20,759 nucleotides of DNA from a virus: positions 1 to 20,759 of IMG/VR virus record IMGVR_UViG_3300026077_000033; one strand, written 5' to 3'. The notes below the pieces were generated by a model. It was not told the DNA's origin. It was given only the letters and a program-made list of their open reading frames with translations, and searched no databases. Shown piece after piece: positions 4,922-10,977 of this stretch; within the stretch, counting starts at the first letter, position 1, and every line of letters starts with the position of its first letter. A program made the translations under genes and the position numbers.

Positions 4922-4929
4922 TATTTATT
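4922..4929 (-). promoter_or_regulatory. Late promoter octamer AATAAATA before uvsW
   Basis: AATAAATA on the minus strand matches the T4/cyanophage late -10 pattern (NATAAATA) and lies 22 bases upstream of the uvsW start. It overlaps the stop codon of the HNH gene by two bases. The known late timing of T4 uvsW supports it. Confidence 0.6.
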
Positions 4930-5488
4930 AGCCCTTGTCAACCTTATATTTTTTTCTGTTTGGTTCGTTATCTTTAGGTGTAGTCCACTGTAAATTATCC
5001 ACATGATTATTCATAGTATCACTATCAATATGATCTATGATGGCAGCGTCTCTTATAAATTGCTTTGCTGACTCTGGGCATTTATTCCAATCTTCTTTTG
5101 GAATAGGAGGATTTTCATCAATAGGTTTCCATGCCTCCATTACTGCTCTATGGTATTTTAATTGAACACTAGCTATATCTGGATTTACAGTTAATCTTTT
5201 GTAGTATTTGGAATTAGGATCAGTTGCTACTTTTTGTTGTGACTGAGATAAAGTATAATCATAATCTTCAAACAATTCTGGAGTTTTATTTCTATCAACT
5301 CGTAAACCAACAACATGAGGAGTTATATATCCTCCACTTTCAATAGTCTCATATTTTGGATTCAATATTTTACTTTTAGAGGTTCTAGTGCTAAGAATTC
5401 TTCCATCTTTAGAAACAAAATAATCAGGAATTTCAATTCCATATTTTGTAATTGGTCTAAATTCCTCTTCGCCAAAAATATTAAGCAT
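4928..5488 (-). CDS. HNH homing-type endonuclease with NUMOD4-like N-terminus
   Basis: This 186-residue protein has the layout of free-standing phage homing endonucleases. Residues 10-33 (FRPITKYG...DYFVSKDGRILS) resemble a NUMOD4-type DNA-binding motif. His113 in KYHRAVMEAW, DHID at 152-155, Asn160/Asn161, Asn165 and Trp168 (NLQWTTPKDN) form the HNH signature, with all key residues present. It starts at a TAATG overlap with the uvsY stop and ends where the uvsW late promoter begins. It has thus settled exactly between two recombination genes without damaging either. It could nick DNA and bias inheritance of this locus during co-infection. A role in packaging or nucleotide recycling cannot be excluded. 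Confidence 0.88.
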   Translation of the reverse strand: MLNIFGEEEFRPITKYGIEIPDYFVSKDGRILSTRTSKSKILNPKYETIESGGYITPHVVGLRVDRNKTPELFEDYDYTLSQSQQKVATDPNSKYYKRLTVNPDIASVQLKYHRAVMEAWKPIDENPPIPKEDWNKCPESAKQFIRDAAIIDHIDSDTMNNHVDNLQWTTPKDNEPNRKKYKVDKG

Positions 5489-5925
5489 TAACCTAATCCC
5501 GAATTAAATCTCATAAATTCAATGGCATTCTTAATTTGATACGTTCTATTTTGTATCACCTTGAGAATGCTTTCCAAGTATACCAACATTGTATCATAGT
5601 AGTCAATCTTTAGAGACACATTTGACAATTTCTCATCCGCATCGAGATACTTTTGCATGGTATCTTTGTCTCGTATTTTCTTTGGAAATGGATTTTCTAT
5701 GTATACACTAGGATCTGACTTGCCACTAAAATACTCATATCGTTCATGACGAATGTTTTTTCTTTGTTGTTCTGCCTTCTTTCTTAGTAGAAAAATGGTA
5801 TTATATAATTCAAAGTATTTTGCATGTAGAGATGGGATATTTAAAGATTCATCATGTAGATTATCTCTATCAATTTCTGCGTCTTTTACCCACATCTCTT
5901 GAAGTGATTCAAGAGTTATACTCAT
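5488..5925 (-). CDS. uvsY: UvsY recombination mediator
   Basis: UvsY loads the UvsX recombinase onto ssDNA coated with gp32. This 145-residue protein aligns by eye with T4 UvsY (137 residues). Shared features are SLQEMWVKDAEID at residues 7-19 (T4 has DLQEELKKDVFID), YEYFSGK at about 64-70 (T4 has LDYYSGR), and the ending IKNAIEFMRFNSG (T4 has IKHIQDMRAFEAG). It is mostly charged helices with no catalytic motif, as expected of a mediator. Its ATG overlaps the stop of the tail-tube-like gene by four bases (ATGA), and its stop overlaps the HNH gene start (TAATG), so translation is probably coupled along this run. Confidence 0.93.
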   Translation of the reverse strand: MSITLESLQEMWVKDAEIDRDNLHDESLNIPSLHAKYFELYNTIFLLRKKAEQQRKNIRHERYEYFSGKSDPSVYIENPFPKKIRDKDTMQKYLDADEKLSNVSLKIDYYDTMLVYLESILKVIQNRTYQIKNAIEFMRFNSGLG

Positions 5926-6488
5926 AAAGGATTGTTAGAAATGTCAGTTATATCATACATAGTATACTTGAAAGTTACGTCTGCTGTAAAGTATTCTATG
6001 TCGGTGTCAGTTGCATCGAACTCTAAAGTTGTCAAACTGACTGGAAATAATTCTGTAAAATTAACATTGAACTTAGCAACTAGGTTGCTACTTAATATCT
6101 GTAGTGTTCCGTCTGAATATATTTGATCTCCAAATTGTGCATATCTTTTAGGTAGGTTGTTTTGACCTTCCTTTTCAAACTTATTAAAGTCTTGTATACT
6201 TTCTGGAAAACCCAATCCACGAATCCACTTTTGTATTTCCATATAGTTTGTAAGATCTTCATCAACTAAGAATCTTAGTGTCAAATCTCCAAACTCTATT
6301 TTGTCACCTGGTGTAGGTATATCTCTTAGATAATTTGTTTGCACCGCTACACCTAGACTTAAATCAGGTATGTTTGCCTGATTACAAAAATATGCAACAC
6401 CTGGTGATCTCTGTAGATTAAACTTAAAACCTACAGGTGCTAAAAAGTTTCTATTTTGTATCTGTGTCGGCCCTCTTGTTTCTGCCAT
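5922..6488 (-). CDS. Tail-tube-fold virion protein (second gp19-like paralogue)
   Basis: This 188-residue protein has the pattern of tail-tube proteins. It shows FKFNLQRS, YFCNQANIPDLSL, TPGDKIEFGDLTLRFLVDEDL, NYMEIQKWI and FTELFPVSLTTLEFDATD near the end. The order parallels the true tube protein at 13598-14191 (FEVELTNL, FLCKAAQMPAQTI, AGDRTIENWTITVINDEDF, YEFIDIFPISVGSIDVSYDSSD). It also resembles the tube-like domain of T4 gp54 around the aromatic NY...W segment. It could be a terminal tube ring (baseplate end or neck end); homologues in cyanophages are, as I recall, variously named structural protein or gp3. It starts MAETRGPTQIQNRNF directly after a two-codon minicistron. Confidence 0.65.
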   Translation of the reverse strand: MAETRGPTQIQNRNFLAPVGFKFNLQRSPGVAYFCNQANIPDLSLGVAVQTNYLRDIPTPGDKIEFGDLTLRFLVDEDLTNYMEIQKWIRGLGFPESIQDFNKFEKEGQNNLPKRYAQFGDQIYSDGTLQILSSNLVAKFNVNFTELFPVSLTTLEFDATDTDIEYFTADVTFKYTMYDITDISNNPL

Positions 6489-6496: not shown

Positions 6497-6500
6497 ACAG

Positions 6501-6508
6501 GTCTCCTT
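6501..6508 (-). promoter_or_regulatory. AAGGAGAC ribosome binding site
   Basis: This strong Shine-Dalgarno overlaps the stop of the halogenase gene. Its spacing fits the minicistron ATG at 6496 better than the structural gene ATG at 6488. Confidence 0.7.
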
Positions 6509-7631
6509 ATGTATTTAGTGACATTCCCTCATCCCAATTTTTGAATGAGTATGCAGGCCATTGACCATATAATTTATTTTGAGTTGTTCCACCATAAGTA
6601 ACAGGAATACAATCAGATATTCTACTATATCCTAGAAATTTATCAAAGGTTTCATCCTCAAATGATAGTGTTTTTGCATATTCCCAAAATGGTGTATCAT
6701 ACTTTGATCCAAATTGATAGTGCCATAAAACAAAGTTTTGAAGTTTTTTTATATATTCGGTTATATCTTCTTTGACATGCACGGAACTAACTTTACCTTG
6801 TAAGTAGTAATCAAATACTGCTCTTGCCATTTCAATATATGTTTGTGTTGATGATGATTCTAACGGTTCAAGAAAGAATAATCTATTACCATTTAAAAAT
6901 ATTCTATTGTCTATCACAGGTTCTTTAGCAACATAATTTTTAAATTGAACATGTTTTGTTACTGACACATCAAACATATTCAAGAAGTTTTCTTCTGCTT
7001 CTTCTTGTGATGTTATATCTGAATTGTAACAATAACCCACACAATACTTAAATGATGGCGACTTTTTTCTTGTCGGTATTACAAAACACCATCCATCAGG
7101 AGTTGCAACGTGTCTACTCCAAGGATTTTTTGCAGTTCTCCAATTAGGTTCTGCCAATATACAAGCATTAATTGGATTGACTAACTCTTCATAATTATCA
7201 TAATTATCTGGTTTACCACTACAATCAAAGATATAATCACTATCAATATTATCTAATTCTGGTAAATTTTTATATGTTGTCTTAAACCTACCTGATGTTA
7301 ATATACTTGCTTGCATTTCCCATGGGCAATAATGTATCGCCATACTATCTGCAGGGAATGGGTGAAATAATTTATCAGTTTTACCCCAGTTCTCATATAA
7401 AATACCACTCTTCATTGTGGCATGAATCTTATTATCATACCAATTAAATCCAGTGGTGGCCCATAACAATGCAGATGCTTCTAGTATTGTTGCTTGACCA
7501 ACTCTTTCTGGAGGTATCTCAGGATCATATATTAATTCAACTTCAAAATCTTTTTGTTTATCCATCCATGCACAATAAAGTGCTGTAAAACACCCTGCGT
7601 TACCACCACCAACTACAGTAATTTTCTTCAT
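6507..7631 (-). CDS. Flavin-dependent tryptophan-halogenase-like protein
   Basis: This 374-residue protein looks like a compact tryptophan halogenase (bacterial enzymes are about 500-540 residues), which uses FADH2, oxygen and halide to halogenate an aromatic ring. The FAD-binding VVGGGNAGCFTA is at residues 6-17. The GQATILEA segment at 45-52 parallels the family's GE.T.P loop. MKSGILYENW (73-82) places Lys74 at the catalytic lysine (PrnA Lys79). DCSG is at 136-139. FFLEPLESSS (252-261) places Glu258 at PrnA Glu346. The family signature WxWxIP reads WCFVIP at 181-186, with Phe for the second Trp. It lies alone between a terminator and a late promoter that serves the next gene. Substrate is unknown; a related flavin monooxygenase activity is possible. 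Confidence 0.85.
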   Translation of the reverse strand: MKKITVVGGGNAGCFTALYCAWMDKQKDFEVELIYDPEIPPERVGQATILEASALLWATTGFNWYDNKIHATMKSGILYENWGKTDKLFHPFPADSMAIHYCPWEMQASILTSGRFKTTYKNLPELDNIDSDYIFDCSGKPDNYDNYEELVNPINACILAEPNWRTAKNPWSRHVATPDGWCFVIPTRKKSPSFKYCVGYCYNSDITSQEEAEENFLNMFDVSVTKHVQFKNYVAKEPVIDNRIFLNGNRLFFLEPLESSSTQTYIEMARAVFDYYLQGKVSSVHVKEDITEYIKKLQNFVLWHYQFGSKYDTPFWEYAKTLSFEDETFDKFLGYSRISDCIPVTYGGTTQNKLYGQWPAYSFKNWDEGMSLNT

Positions 7632-7637
7632 TCAACT

Positions 7638-7646
7638 ATTTTAGCA
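7638..7646 (-). promoter_or_regulatory. Possible extended -10 promoter of the halogenase gene
   Basis: TGCTAAAAT on the minus strand resembles an extended -10 (TGnTATAAT) and lies just after the terminator. The -35 position at 17-base spacing (TTGCGG) is poor and falls inside the hairpin. Initiation would fall close to the ATG at 7631, giving a nearly leaderless mRNA, in line with the absence of a Shine-Dalgarno. Weak evidence. Confidence 0.25.
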
Positions 7647-7647
7647 T

Positions 7648-7677
7648 AAAAAAAAGAGACCCGCAATGGGTCTCTTT
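7648..7677 (-). terminator. Rho-independent terminator after the major capsid gene
   Basis: A ten-base perfect stem (AAAGAGACCC and GGGTCTCTTT) with a five-base loop is followed on the minus strand by an eight-T run that partly overlaps the stem. It lies 21 bases after the capsid gene stop and 17 bases before the halogenase ATG. It should end the head-gene transcript and separate the halogenase from it. It is the clearest terminator in the window. Confidence 0.93.
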
Positions 7678-7697: not shown

Positions 7698-9131
7698 TTA
7701 CATAAGGTTTTTAACAGCCACTCTTCTGTAGTATCTGTTCTGGTTAGCAAGTAATCCACCAGATCCCTGTGTGGTTCCTTCAGCAAATGGGTTTGCAACA
7801 AGACCGTATCTTGTCTTAAATCCAATTTTTGGCTGGAAGGAGTTCTCTCCCACAGCACGAACCATCTGTAGTGGAACGTAAGGGCAGTAGAATATTCCTG
7901 CGTCATAAGGAGATGTTCCTTTGTAACCAACAACGTAATACTGATTACCACCTGAAGGTGCAGCGTTAGCACTTGTTAAGTTAGCAGCATATGGGTCGAT
8001 GTATACTCTATACTTACCTTGTAGAACACCAGCAAATGTGTTACCTGTGTCATCTACATTTAAGTTTGCATTTAATGCAGGAGTATAATCAAGAACACCA
8101 GCCATGGTTAATGCAGAAGCAACGTCTGCTGAACACATGATGATGTTACCCTTTCCGCGACGAGTTCTTTGTGCAATCGCGTTAGCGTCTCTTTCGATCT
8201 GGAATAATAGACCTTTGAACTTCTCAACAGACCATCTTCCGTTTGAGTCGATGTCTAGGTCAAACACACCAGCAGTTGCTGTATTTTGAACAGCACCTTG
8301 CTCTGCAACCTTATAGATTGATCTGATAACTTCTCTGTTAATCTCAGCAAGTATCTCAGTTGAAAGGATGTTTGCAAGTTCTGCTTCTGCGTTTAATCCG
8401 TGGATCGCCTTGAGGTCTTGAGCAAGTTCTAAACTGTACTCAGCTTTTAACGCACGAGACTTAGCAGTAACTGTAACTTTCTCGATTGAGAATGCCATCT
8501 GATTGAAGGCATCGTTACCTGTTCCTTGTAGGTTCTCAGCGTCACCTGTAACCATACCTTGACCAACGTTGTAGCCAGGTGTAGCAGCAGTTCCAACTGG
8601 GTTAAGAATCGCAGGGTTTGATCCTTGTTGTGATGCAGAACCGAAACCAGCAGCTACGTCTGTAAATCCTGCTGTCTCGTCACTGTTTGCATCGTTTCCA
8701 GAGAATGTTGTATCTACTTCATCGTAGAATGTCTCTGTTCCACTCTGTGAAGTGTATCTGGATCTCATCGCAAAGATAAGACCTGTTGGGCCACTCATTG
8801 GTTGAACACCAGCAAGGTCATATGCCACCAAGTTAGGCATAGATCTTCTGATCAATGAGATAAGAACTGGGTCGAAACCAGCAACTGGGCCAGTAGCAGT
8901 TGCACTACCACCGAATCCACCGCCAGCACCAGCAGCGTTCGCACTGTTGGTTGGAGGAGCTTCCATCAGGTTGATACCTGAGTTAAATGCTTGCTCTTCT
9001 CTTAAAAATTTTTCTTGGTTTTCTAGCAAGACAGCAGTAACTGCTTTTCTATGATTATCCTTGATTGGATCAAGACCATCATACTCTAATAGCGGCTTCC
9101 ACTTTTCCTGCAGTTGTTCTGATTGGAACAT
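7698..9131 (-). CDS. 23: gp23 major capsid protein precursor
   Basis: This 477-residue protein is the T4-type major capsid precursor forming the hexamers of the head shell. The N-terminal helical, charged propeptide ends at LMEAPPTN, where Leu55-Met-Glu57 followed by Ala58 matches the T4 prohead protease consensus (Leu/Ile-x-Glu before Ala/Gly). A Gly/Ala-rich linker follows (AAGAGGGFGGSA). Typical family segments are DPVLISLIRRSMPNLVAYDLAGVQPM, SRALKAEYSLELAQDLKAIHGL and the ending NRYYRRVAVKNLM. It follows the protease and scaffold genes and is closed by a strong terminator. I find no late-promoter octamer and no strong Shine-Dalgarno in the 41 bases before it, so it may be read from the promoter before gp22. 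Confidence 0.98.
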   Translation of the reverse strand: MFQSEQLQEKWKPLLEYDGLDPIKDNHRKAVTAVLLENQEKFLREEQAFNSGINLMEAPPTNSANAAGAGGGFGGSATATGPVAGFDPVLISLIRRSMPNLVAYDLAGVQPMSGPTGLIFAMRSRYTSQSGTETFYDEVDTTFSGNDANSDETAGFTDVAAGFGSASQQGSNPAILNPVGTAATPGYNVGQGMVTGDAENLQGTGNDAFNQMAFSIEKVTVTAKSRALKAEYSLELAQDLKAIHGLNAEAELANILSTEILAEINREVIRSIYKVAEQGAVQNTATAGVFDLDIDSNGRWSVEKFKGLLFQIERDANAIAQRTRRGKGNIIMCSADVASALTMAGVLDYTPALNANLNVDDTGNTFAGVLQGKYRVYIDPYAANLTSANAAPSGGNQYYVVGYKGTSPYDAGIFYCPYVPLQMVRAVGENSFQPKIGFKTRYGLVANPFAEGTTQGSGGLLANQNRYYRRVAVKNLM

Positions 9132-10326: not shown

Positions 10327-10977
10327 TTATAAATTAGACAGAAAATCACTAAACAGATTTAATTTCTGTTCATCTAATTTTTTCTGATCTACTAGAGTGT
10401 TAATTTGTTTGTAAGTTTTAGTTGCAAACTTCTCACGAAGTATACCACCATCCCATACCCACTCTTTTCCTTCCATAATTCCCGATACAAATGCGTCAGG
10501 AGCTGAAGGATCGGCAACGATATCAGCAGCAGTTGCTAACATGAAATCTTCACCTACTACAGCAAAACCTTCTTTAGTCTGTTGGAGTGAACCAACACCA
10601 CGAGAAGATACGCCAAGTTTTACACCTTCTTCAATTAATGAAGATGCAATTTTACCCATTGGTGTATTAAGGATTTTAGCCTTACCAATAAAATTAGATC
10701 CGCTTTCTTTCAAAGAAACGATCTTATGAGATACTCTATCAAGGTTTACAGTTGGGCCTTCTGGATGACCAAGTTCGCCAAGTGCTCTTCCTGATTGAAT
10801 ATGATTCTCACTATAACGACCAACTTCTCTACGAAGAGTCTCCATAGGATACATTCTGCCGTTACGATTTTTGATATTTCCTTGTAAGAAAACACCTTCG
10901 ATATACATTGATTTCTTGCCGTTCTTTTGTTCAACAAGAAATTCAACAGATTCGATTTCCTCTCTAATTAGTTTCAT
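10327..10977 (-). CDS. 21: gp21 prohead core protease
   Basis: This 216-residue serine protease of the T4 prohead-protease family cleaves scaffold, core and capsid proteins during head maturation. The catalytic histidine is His71 in GELGHPEGP. The catalytic serine lies in GVSSRGVG (Ser124 or Ser125). The N-terminal motif GNIKNRNGRMYP (33-44) is also typical. The length equals T4 gp21 (about 212). An IME/G site at residues 167-170 fits the protease's own consensus and may be a self-cleavage point, as T4 gp21 also processes itself. The start overlaps the stop of the 192-residue gene as TAATG. Confidence 0.95.
   Translation of the reverse strand: MKLIREEIESVEFLVEQKNGKKSMYIEGVFLQGNIKNRNGRMYPMETLRREVGRYSENHIQSGRALGELGHPEGPTVNLDRVSHKIVSLKESGSNFIGKAKILNTPMGKIASSLIEEGVKLGVSSRGVGSLQQTKEGFAVVGEDFMLATAADIVADPSAPDAFVSGIMEGKEWVWDGGILREKFATKTYKQINTLVDQKKLDEQKLNLFSDFLSNL

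Follow-up and report, generated by a model that had tools for sequence, protein, structure and literature searches.

The window, meaning here the whole stretch of 20,759 nucleotides analysed (IMG/VR virus record IMGVR_UViG_3300026077_000033), carries on its minus strand a gene for a putative compact flavin-dependent halogenase of 374 amino acids (6507..7631). It is preceded by the gene for the major capsid protein gp23 (7698..9131, minus strand) and followed by a gene for a gp3-type tail completion protein (5922..6488, minus strand) and by uvsY, the next conserved neighbour (5488..5925, minus strand). The original prediction was right about the capsid gene, but the gene it called tail-tube-like is better named gp3: 5922–6488 scores on a tail-tube PHROG, while in Sf-CH8, Bellamy and P-TIM68 the genes in syntenic position are annotated as gp3-type tail completion proteins. 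An HNH endonuclease gene (4928–5488) separates uvsY from uvsW in the window; a related gene is present in L022 and absent in several other relatives. Since gp23 is closest to that of Synechococcus and Prochlorococcus T4-like phages, with up to 83% identity, the record is putatively assigned, on its capsid protein, to the marine T4-like phages, and among them to the cyanophage (Kyanoviridae) type.

The cassette appears to have transcription signals of its own, a terminator and a candidate -10 element, both of which are conserved. The intrinsic terminator of gp23 (7653..7677, minus strand) consists of a 10-bp stem followed by a T run and is the strongest of four in the window, where shuffled sequences lead one to expect 1.7; its position is retained in relatives despite quite different stem sequences, so the strong upstream terminator proposed earlier (hairpin 7677–7653) is confirmed. 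Between it and the start codon lies TGCTAAAAT (7638..7646, minus strand), a candidate promoter for the halogenase of the extended -10 kind. It is conserved in L001, L003, L004, L006 and L012, and its counterpart in the empty site described below is TATGCTATAAT; the element is weak, and its role as a promoter is read from the sequence. Because this candidate -10 ends 6 bases upstream of the ATG, a near-leaderless halogenase transcript is possible. A late promoter was also considered for the halogenase and rejected, the consensus [T/A]ATAAATA or CTAAATA being missing upstream of the gene in the window; the relatives L040–L080 carry AATAAATA at this place. The late consensus precedes most late genes of the window, among them gp18, gp19, gp20, gp22, uvsW, gp3 and those at 10977, 11591 and 18286; its sites number 14 on the coding strand and 4 on the opposite strand. 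For gp3 it takes the form CTAAATA (6512..6518, minus strand), formed by the last halogenase codons CTA-AAT-A and conserved in relatives, as the earlier reading of a late promoter in these codons (6518–6512) had it, and is followed by GGAGACC (6500..6506, minus strand), a likely ribosome-binding stretch. Both the late element and GGAGACC remain with gp3 where a peptide deformylase gene precedes it (L016, L018 and L031).

The borders of the cassette can be seen in a near-identical phage fragment, L087, whose gp23 and gp3 are 97% and 99% identical to those of the window and are separated by only 92 bases, without a halogenase. The order in L087 is terminator-TATGCTATAATAAATAAATAT-GGAGACC-gp3, with the -10-like and late-promoter-like elements fused, and that in the window is terminator-TATGCTAAAATAGTTGA-ATG...CTAAATACATAA-GGAGACC-gp3; the terminator and GGAGACC are intact on either side, the latter being unchanged in the empty-site phage. 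Judged from this comparison, the halogenase appears to sit within the fused promoter, with the -10-like element on its left and the late element, supplied by its last codons, on its right. The existence of such an empty site argues that the halogenase is a separable one-gene cargo cassette, in agreement with the earlier idea of a moron-style gene. The gp23 terminator would stop most read-through into the halogenase, the short extended -10 element upstream of the ATG probably starts its transcription, and, as gp3 would regain its late promoter from the last halogenase codons, the cassette may be gained or lost without harm to gp3.

A scan of IMG/VR with the halogenase as query yielded 108 related stretches, of which 80 were kept. 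The halogenase adjoins gp23 and/or gp3 in 49 of these 80 relatives and also in Synechococcus phage Sf-CH8. In about 26 others it comes after nrdA-nrdB and a gene for a SegE-like homing endonuclease; in L029, L030 and L035 it shares a tail-fibre cluster with genes for 2OG-Fe(II) oxygenases, and in L032 and L034 it stands beside divergent 2OG genes. On the gene tree only 7 context changes occur over 88 rows, compared with 32 in shuffles, and 53 of the 61 gp3 relatives with gp23 on the same contig are without the gene. For these two reasons, the halogenase is an old, often absent resident of the gp23–gp3 slot rather than a recent arrival; a recent random insertion is ruled out by synteny and the gene tree. 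The gene thus cannot be called isolated, as the original prediction had it, since the order gp23-halogenase-gp3 recurs in many marine T4-like phages and in Sf-CH8 and the position is stable on the tree. A second halogenase was found in none of seven related records.

Several further observations concern the same interval. In L012, gp22, gp23 and gp3 are 55%, 82% and 98% identical to those of the window, respectively, a jump in identity that suggests a breakpoint of recombination close to the halogenase. In P-TIM68 the slot is filled by a 373-aa gene of unknown family (L165:5208-6329), which gave no halogenase match and is rejected as a halogenase. Some relatives carry tRNA-Asp (L016, L018 and L024) or tRNA-Asn (L013, L020 and L021) between gp23 and the halogenase; tRNA, peptide deformylase and endonuclease-like genes mark the interval as a variable slot. 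A conserved RNA of about 100 nt, which does not occur in the window, lies past the gp23 terminator in L022 (4684-4790), with equivalents in L013–L015, L017, L020–L028, L103 and L105, the last two being without a halogenase. It has its own -10-like element, a 5' hairpin and a second hairpin, the loop of which pairs back to form a pseudoknot; of 24 pairs, 8 are changed on both sides, compared with 3.8 in shuffles, and no Rfam family is matched at cut-off.

The identification as tryptophan-halogenase-like holds, the best matches of the protein being halogenases. The HMM search proposed at the outset gave a match to Pfam Trp_halogenase (PF04820) with an E-value of 5.3e-31 and 108.4 bits, against a curated cut-off of 21, and the PHROG "tryptophan halogenase" was matched at 5e-69. 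In 45 aligned sequences, the relatives being 58–95% identical, the GxGxxG residues G8, G10 and G13 are invariant together with K74, W181, F183, I185, P186, E258 and S259, and K74 and W181 remain so once distant phage halogenases are aligned. Lys74 (codon 7412-7410, minus strand) aligns with Lys79 of PrnA, RebH and Thal; Glu258 (codon 6860-6858, minus strand) corresponds to PrnA Glu346 (Thal Glu358), and Glu258-Ser259 fall on the Glu-Ser of EPLES in RebH and Thal. It has been reported that Lys79, Glu358 and Ser359 of Thal form the common active-site trio (PMC7948982); the lysine and glutamate equivalents named in the original prediction are thus borne out by the alignments, and the site is intact. 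Of the tunnel motif Fx.Px.Sx.G, F253, P256 and S259 are kept, while the Gly of RebH and Thal (FVEPLES.G) is Ser261. The HPF before the substrate site, letters that have been listed for many halogenases (PMC8269204), is also kept.

Two motifs depart from the family. The change of WxWxIP to WCFVIP, noticed earlier, is present as W181-C-F183-V-I185-P186 (residues 181–186), and WxFxIP replaces WxWxIP throughout the clade of 45 sequences. WxWxIP is thought to prevent monooxygenation, but variants of it, or its absence, occur in active halogenases, and the motif is therefore not strictly defining (PMC8407142). In the same clade, the Glu of VGEAT is replaced by Gln46 (VGQAT), which is invariant in the 45 sequences. 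The corresponding E46Q form of PyrH is a crystallised mutant (2wes). The PyrH E46Q mutant is impaired. With Gln in place of this Glu, low activity or a different oxidation is possible.

These departures bear on a second reading, in which the same fold serves a flavin monooxygenase, and an aromatic metabolite or side chain is hydroxylated instead of halogenated. Such an enzyme would resemble QhpG, a hydroxylase of peptidyl Trp whose fold is like that of halogenases (PMC7876137). Gln46, the altered WxWxIP and a weak, sub-threshold match of the longer phage relative S-PM2 to QhpG speak for it; against it stand the invariance of Lys74, Glu258 and Ser259 and the lack of a QhpG match for the window protein, which matched no NCBIfam model at E 0.01, that of QhpG included. 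The structure model, predicted with AlphaFold from 45 window and locus sequences (mean pLDDT 90.9, pTM 0.89), also argues against it: the top PDB matches are all flavin-dependent halogenases, with Z 28–36 over 345–365 residues (Foldseek, VIA-align), as for AbeH (36.2), Xcc4156 (35.2), BrvH (34.2), PrnA (31.8) and VirX1 (28.1). The QhpG structure 7CTQ was outside the 50 PDB entries listed in this comparison, which thus says nothing on its fold. The predicted fold is that of the flavin-dependent halogenase family, and hydroxylation without halogenation is considered rather unlikely.

The protein is also compact: its 374 aa stand against about 497–554 aa for solved tryptophan halogenases, close to the shortening of about 150 residues originally estimated. 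A central segment of about 50–100 residues and the C-terminal part are absent; in the sequence alignment RebH 110–233 is replaced by profile positions 85–124 and the C-terminus ends early, and in the phage alignment the absent block falls between HPF and the HY-motif helix. The amino-acid clamp of Thal (Tyr454, Tyr455, Glu461, Phe465 and Trp466) is not clearly kept: in the pairwise alignment, which is weak at this end, Tyr355 and the Trp366 region pair with the clamp stretch, without a Glu. Because the clamp is not clearly kept and the central segment and C-terminal part are absent, free tryptophan is probably not the most likely substrate.

In a third reading, to which the uncertain clamp lends some weight, Trp or Tyr of a phage or host protein, for example of the virion, is halogenated as a post-translational modification. 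The gene lies between virion genes in the window and adjoins tail-fibre genes in L029/L030/L035, S-ShM2 and S-RIM4 and the terminase in HTVC008M. Outside the gp23–gp3 slot, halogenases are repeatedly found near 2OG-Fe(II)/PhyH-type oxygenase genes (L029:4273-6001, L083:7357-8001, L066, L032, L161, HTVC008M (L171) and Syn1 (L169)). Such 2OG-Fe(II) oxygenases, some of which are protein hydroxylases, occur near 15 of 36 loci of the other contexts, compared with 5 of 63 control gp3 loci; the association is only a lead, given the dependence among loci and the differing contexts. However, no 2OG gene lies near any gp23–gp3 locus, many phages share the virion genes yet have no halogenase, and no Trp/Tyr column in gp23, gp22, gp21, gp3 or uvsY tracks its presence. 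The suggestion of a protein side chain, offered in the original prediction, thus finds no support in these five virion and neighbouring proteins, and a protein substrate is judged very unlikely; a wider phage toolkit, in which the halogenase and 2OG-Fe(II) oxygenases together modify protein Trp/Tyr in infection, would be just as improbable. A decaying or catalytically dead remnant, passively carried in a variable slot, could account for the shortened protein, Gln46 and the many phages without the gene, but is hardly credible given the active site invariant in 45 sequences at 58–95% identity, the lack of internal stops and a dN/dS of 0.05–0.30 against relatives (dS up to 1.2), by which the protein is under purifying selection.

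The gene therefore probably encodes a compact halogenase dependent on FAD and makes up a one-gene cargo cassette of the gp23–gp3 interval in a marine T4-like phage. By analogy with the family, FADH2 from a host reductase would combine with O2 and halide, yielding hypohalous acid (HOX); this would travel along the tunnel to Lys74, which together with Glu258 and Ser259 would halogenate an electron-rich aromatic compound, perhaps one of the host. The window shows no recognisable flavin reductase gene, and no substrate pathway lies near the halogenase; the literature searched yielded no in vivo substrate for any phage halogenase. Marine phages often carry a halogenase as cargo, and since this one is compact, belongs to a common family, keeps a stable place and has near relatives without the gene, its role in infection is testable by comparison and assay. 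Compact halogenases may also serve as biocatalysts.

Phage halogenases of both lengths are already known, and one viral relative has been characterised. Genes from 1104 to 1593 bp, including some of 1104–1167 bp, were tabulated for cyanophages in 2010 (PMC3037559), and the tabulated phage halogenases include forms of 367–388 aa, catalogued since that year; tryptophan halogenases were also listed among cyanomyovirus genes in 2010 (PMC2984593), and a 2023 review counted a halogenase in 20 of 153 cyanophages (PMC10452541). The compact "tryptophan halogenase" genes of the T4-like cyanophages Sf-CH8, S-ShM2, S-SSM5 and S-SSM7 (T4-like gene cluster 212, PrnA) resemble that of the window in length (359–390 aa) and in the catalytic Lys, and the Sf-CH8 gene also lies between gp23 and gp3; however, these putative enzymes are only 26–53% identical to it and most are encoded elsewhere in the genome. 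VirX1 of cyanophage Syn10 (6QGM) is a viral flavin-dependent halogenase that shares the fold (Z 28.1 over 345 residues), but is of the long type (531 aa versus 374) with 20% identity; it is active in vitro and prefers iodide (PMC8407142). The bacterial PrnA, RebH, Thal, PyrH, AbeH, BrvH and Xcc4156 share the fold, GxGxxG, the Lys79, Glu346 and Ser equivalents and HPF. Compared with them, the window protein is short of about 100 central residues and of the C-terminal end and has WxFxIP and VGQAT where they have WxWxIP and VGEAT, and the window gene lies outside a biosynthetic cluster. A putative compact halogenase gene from a Poribacteria MAG (L163:5998-7092) is 45% identical, has about 365 aa and shares WCFVIP, but its neighbours on the 90-kb contig are ordinary chromosomal genes, such as those for an M48 peptidase and an ABC transporter. 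New relative to these systems are the clean empty site, a join by which the gp3 promoter is kept intact, the stable position and the WxFxIP/VGQAT signature of the clade.
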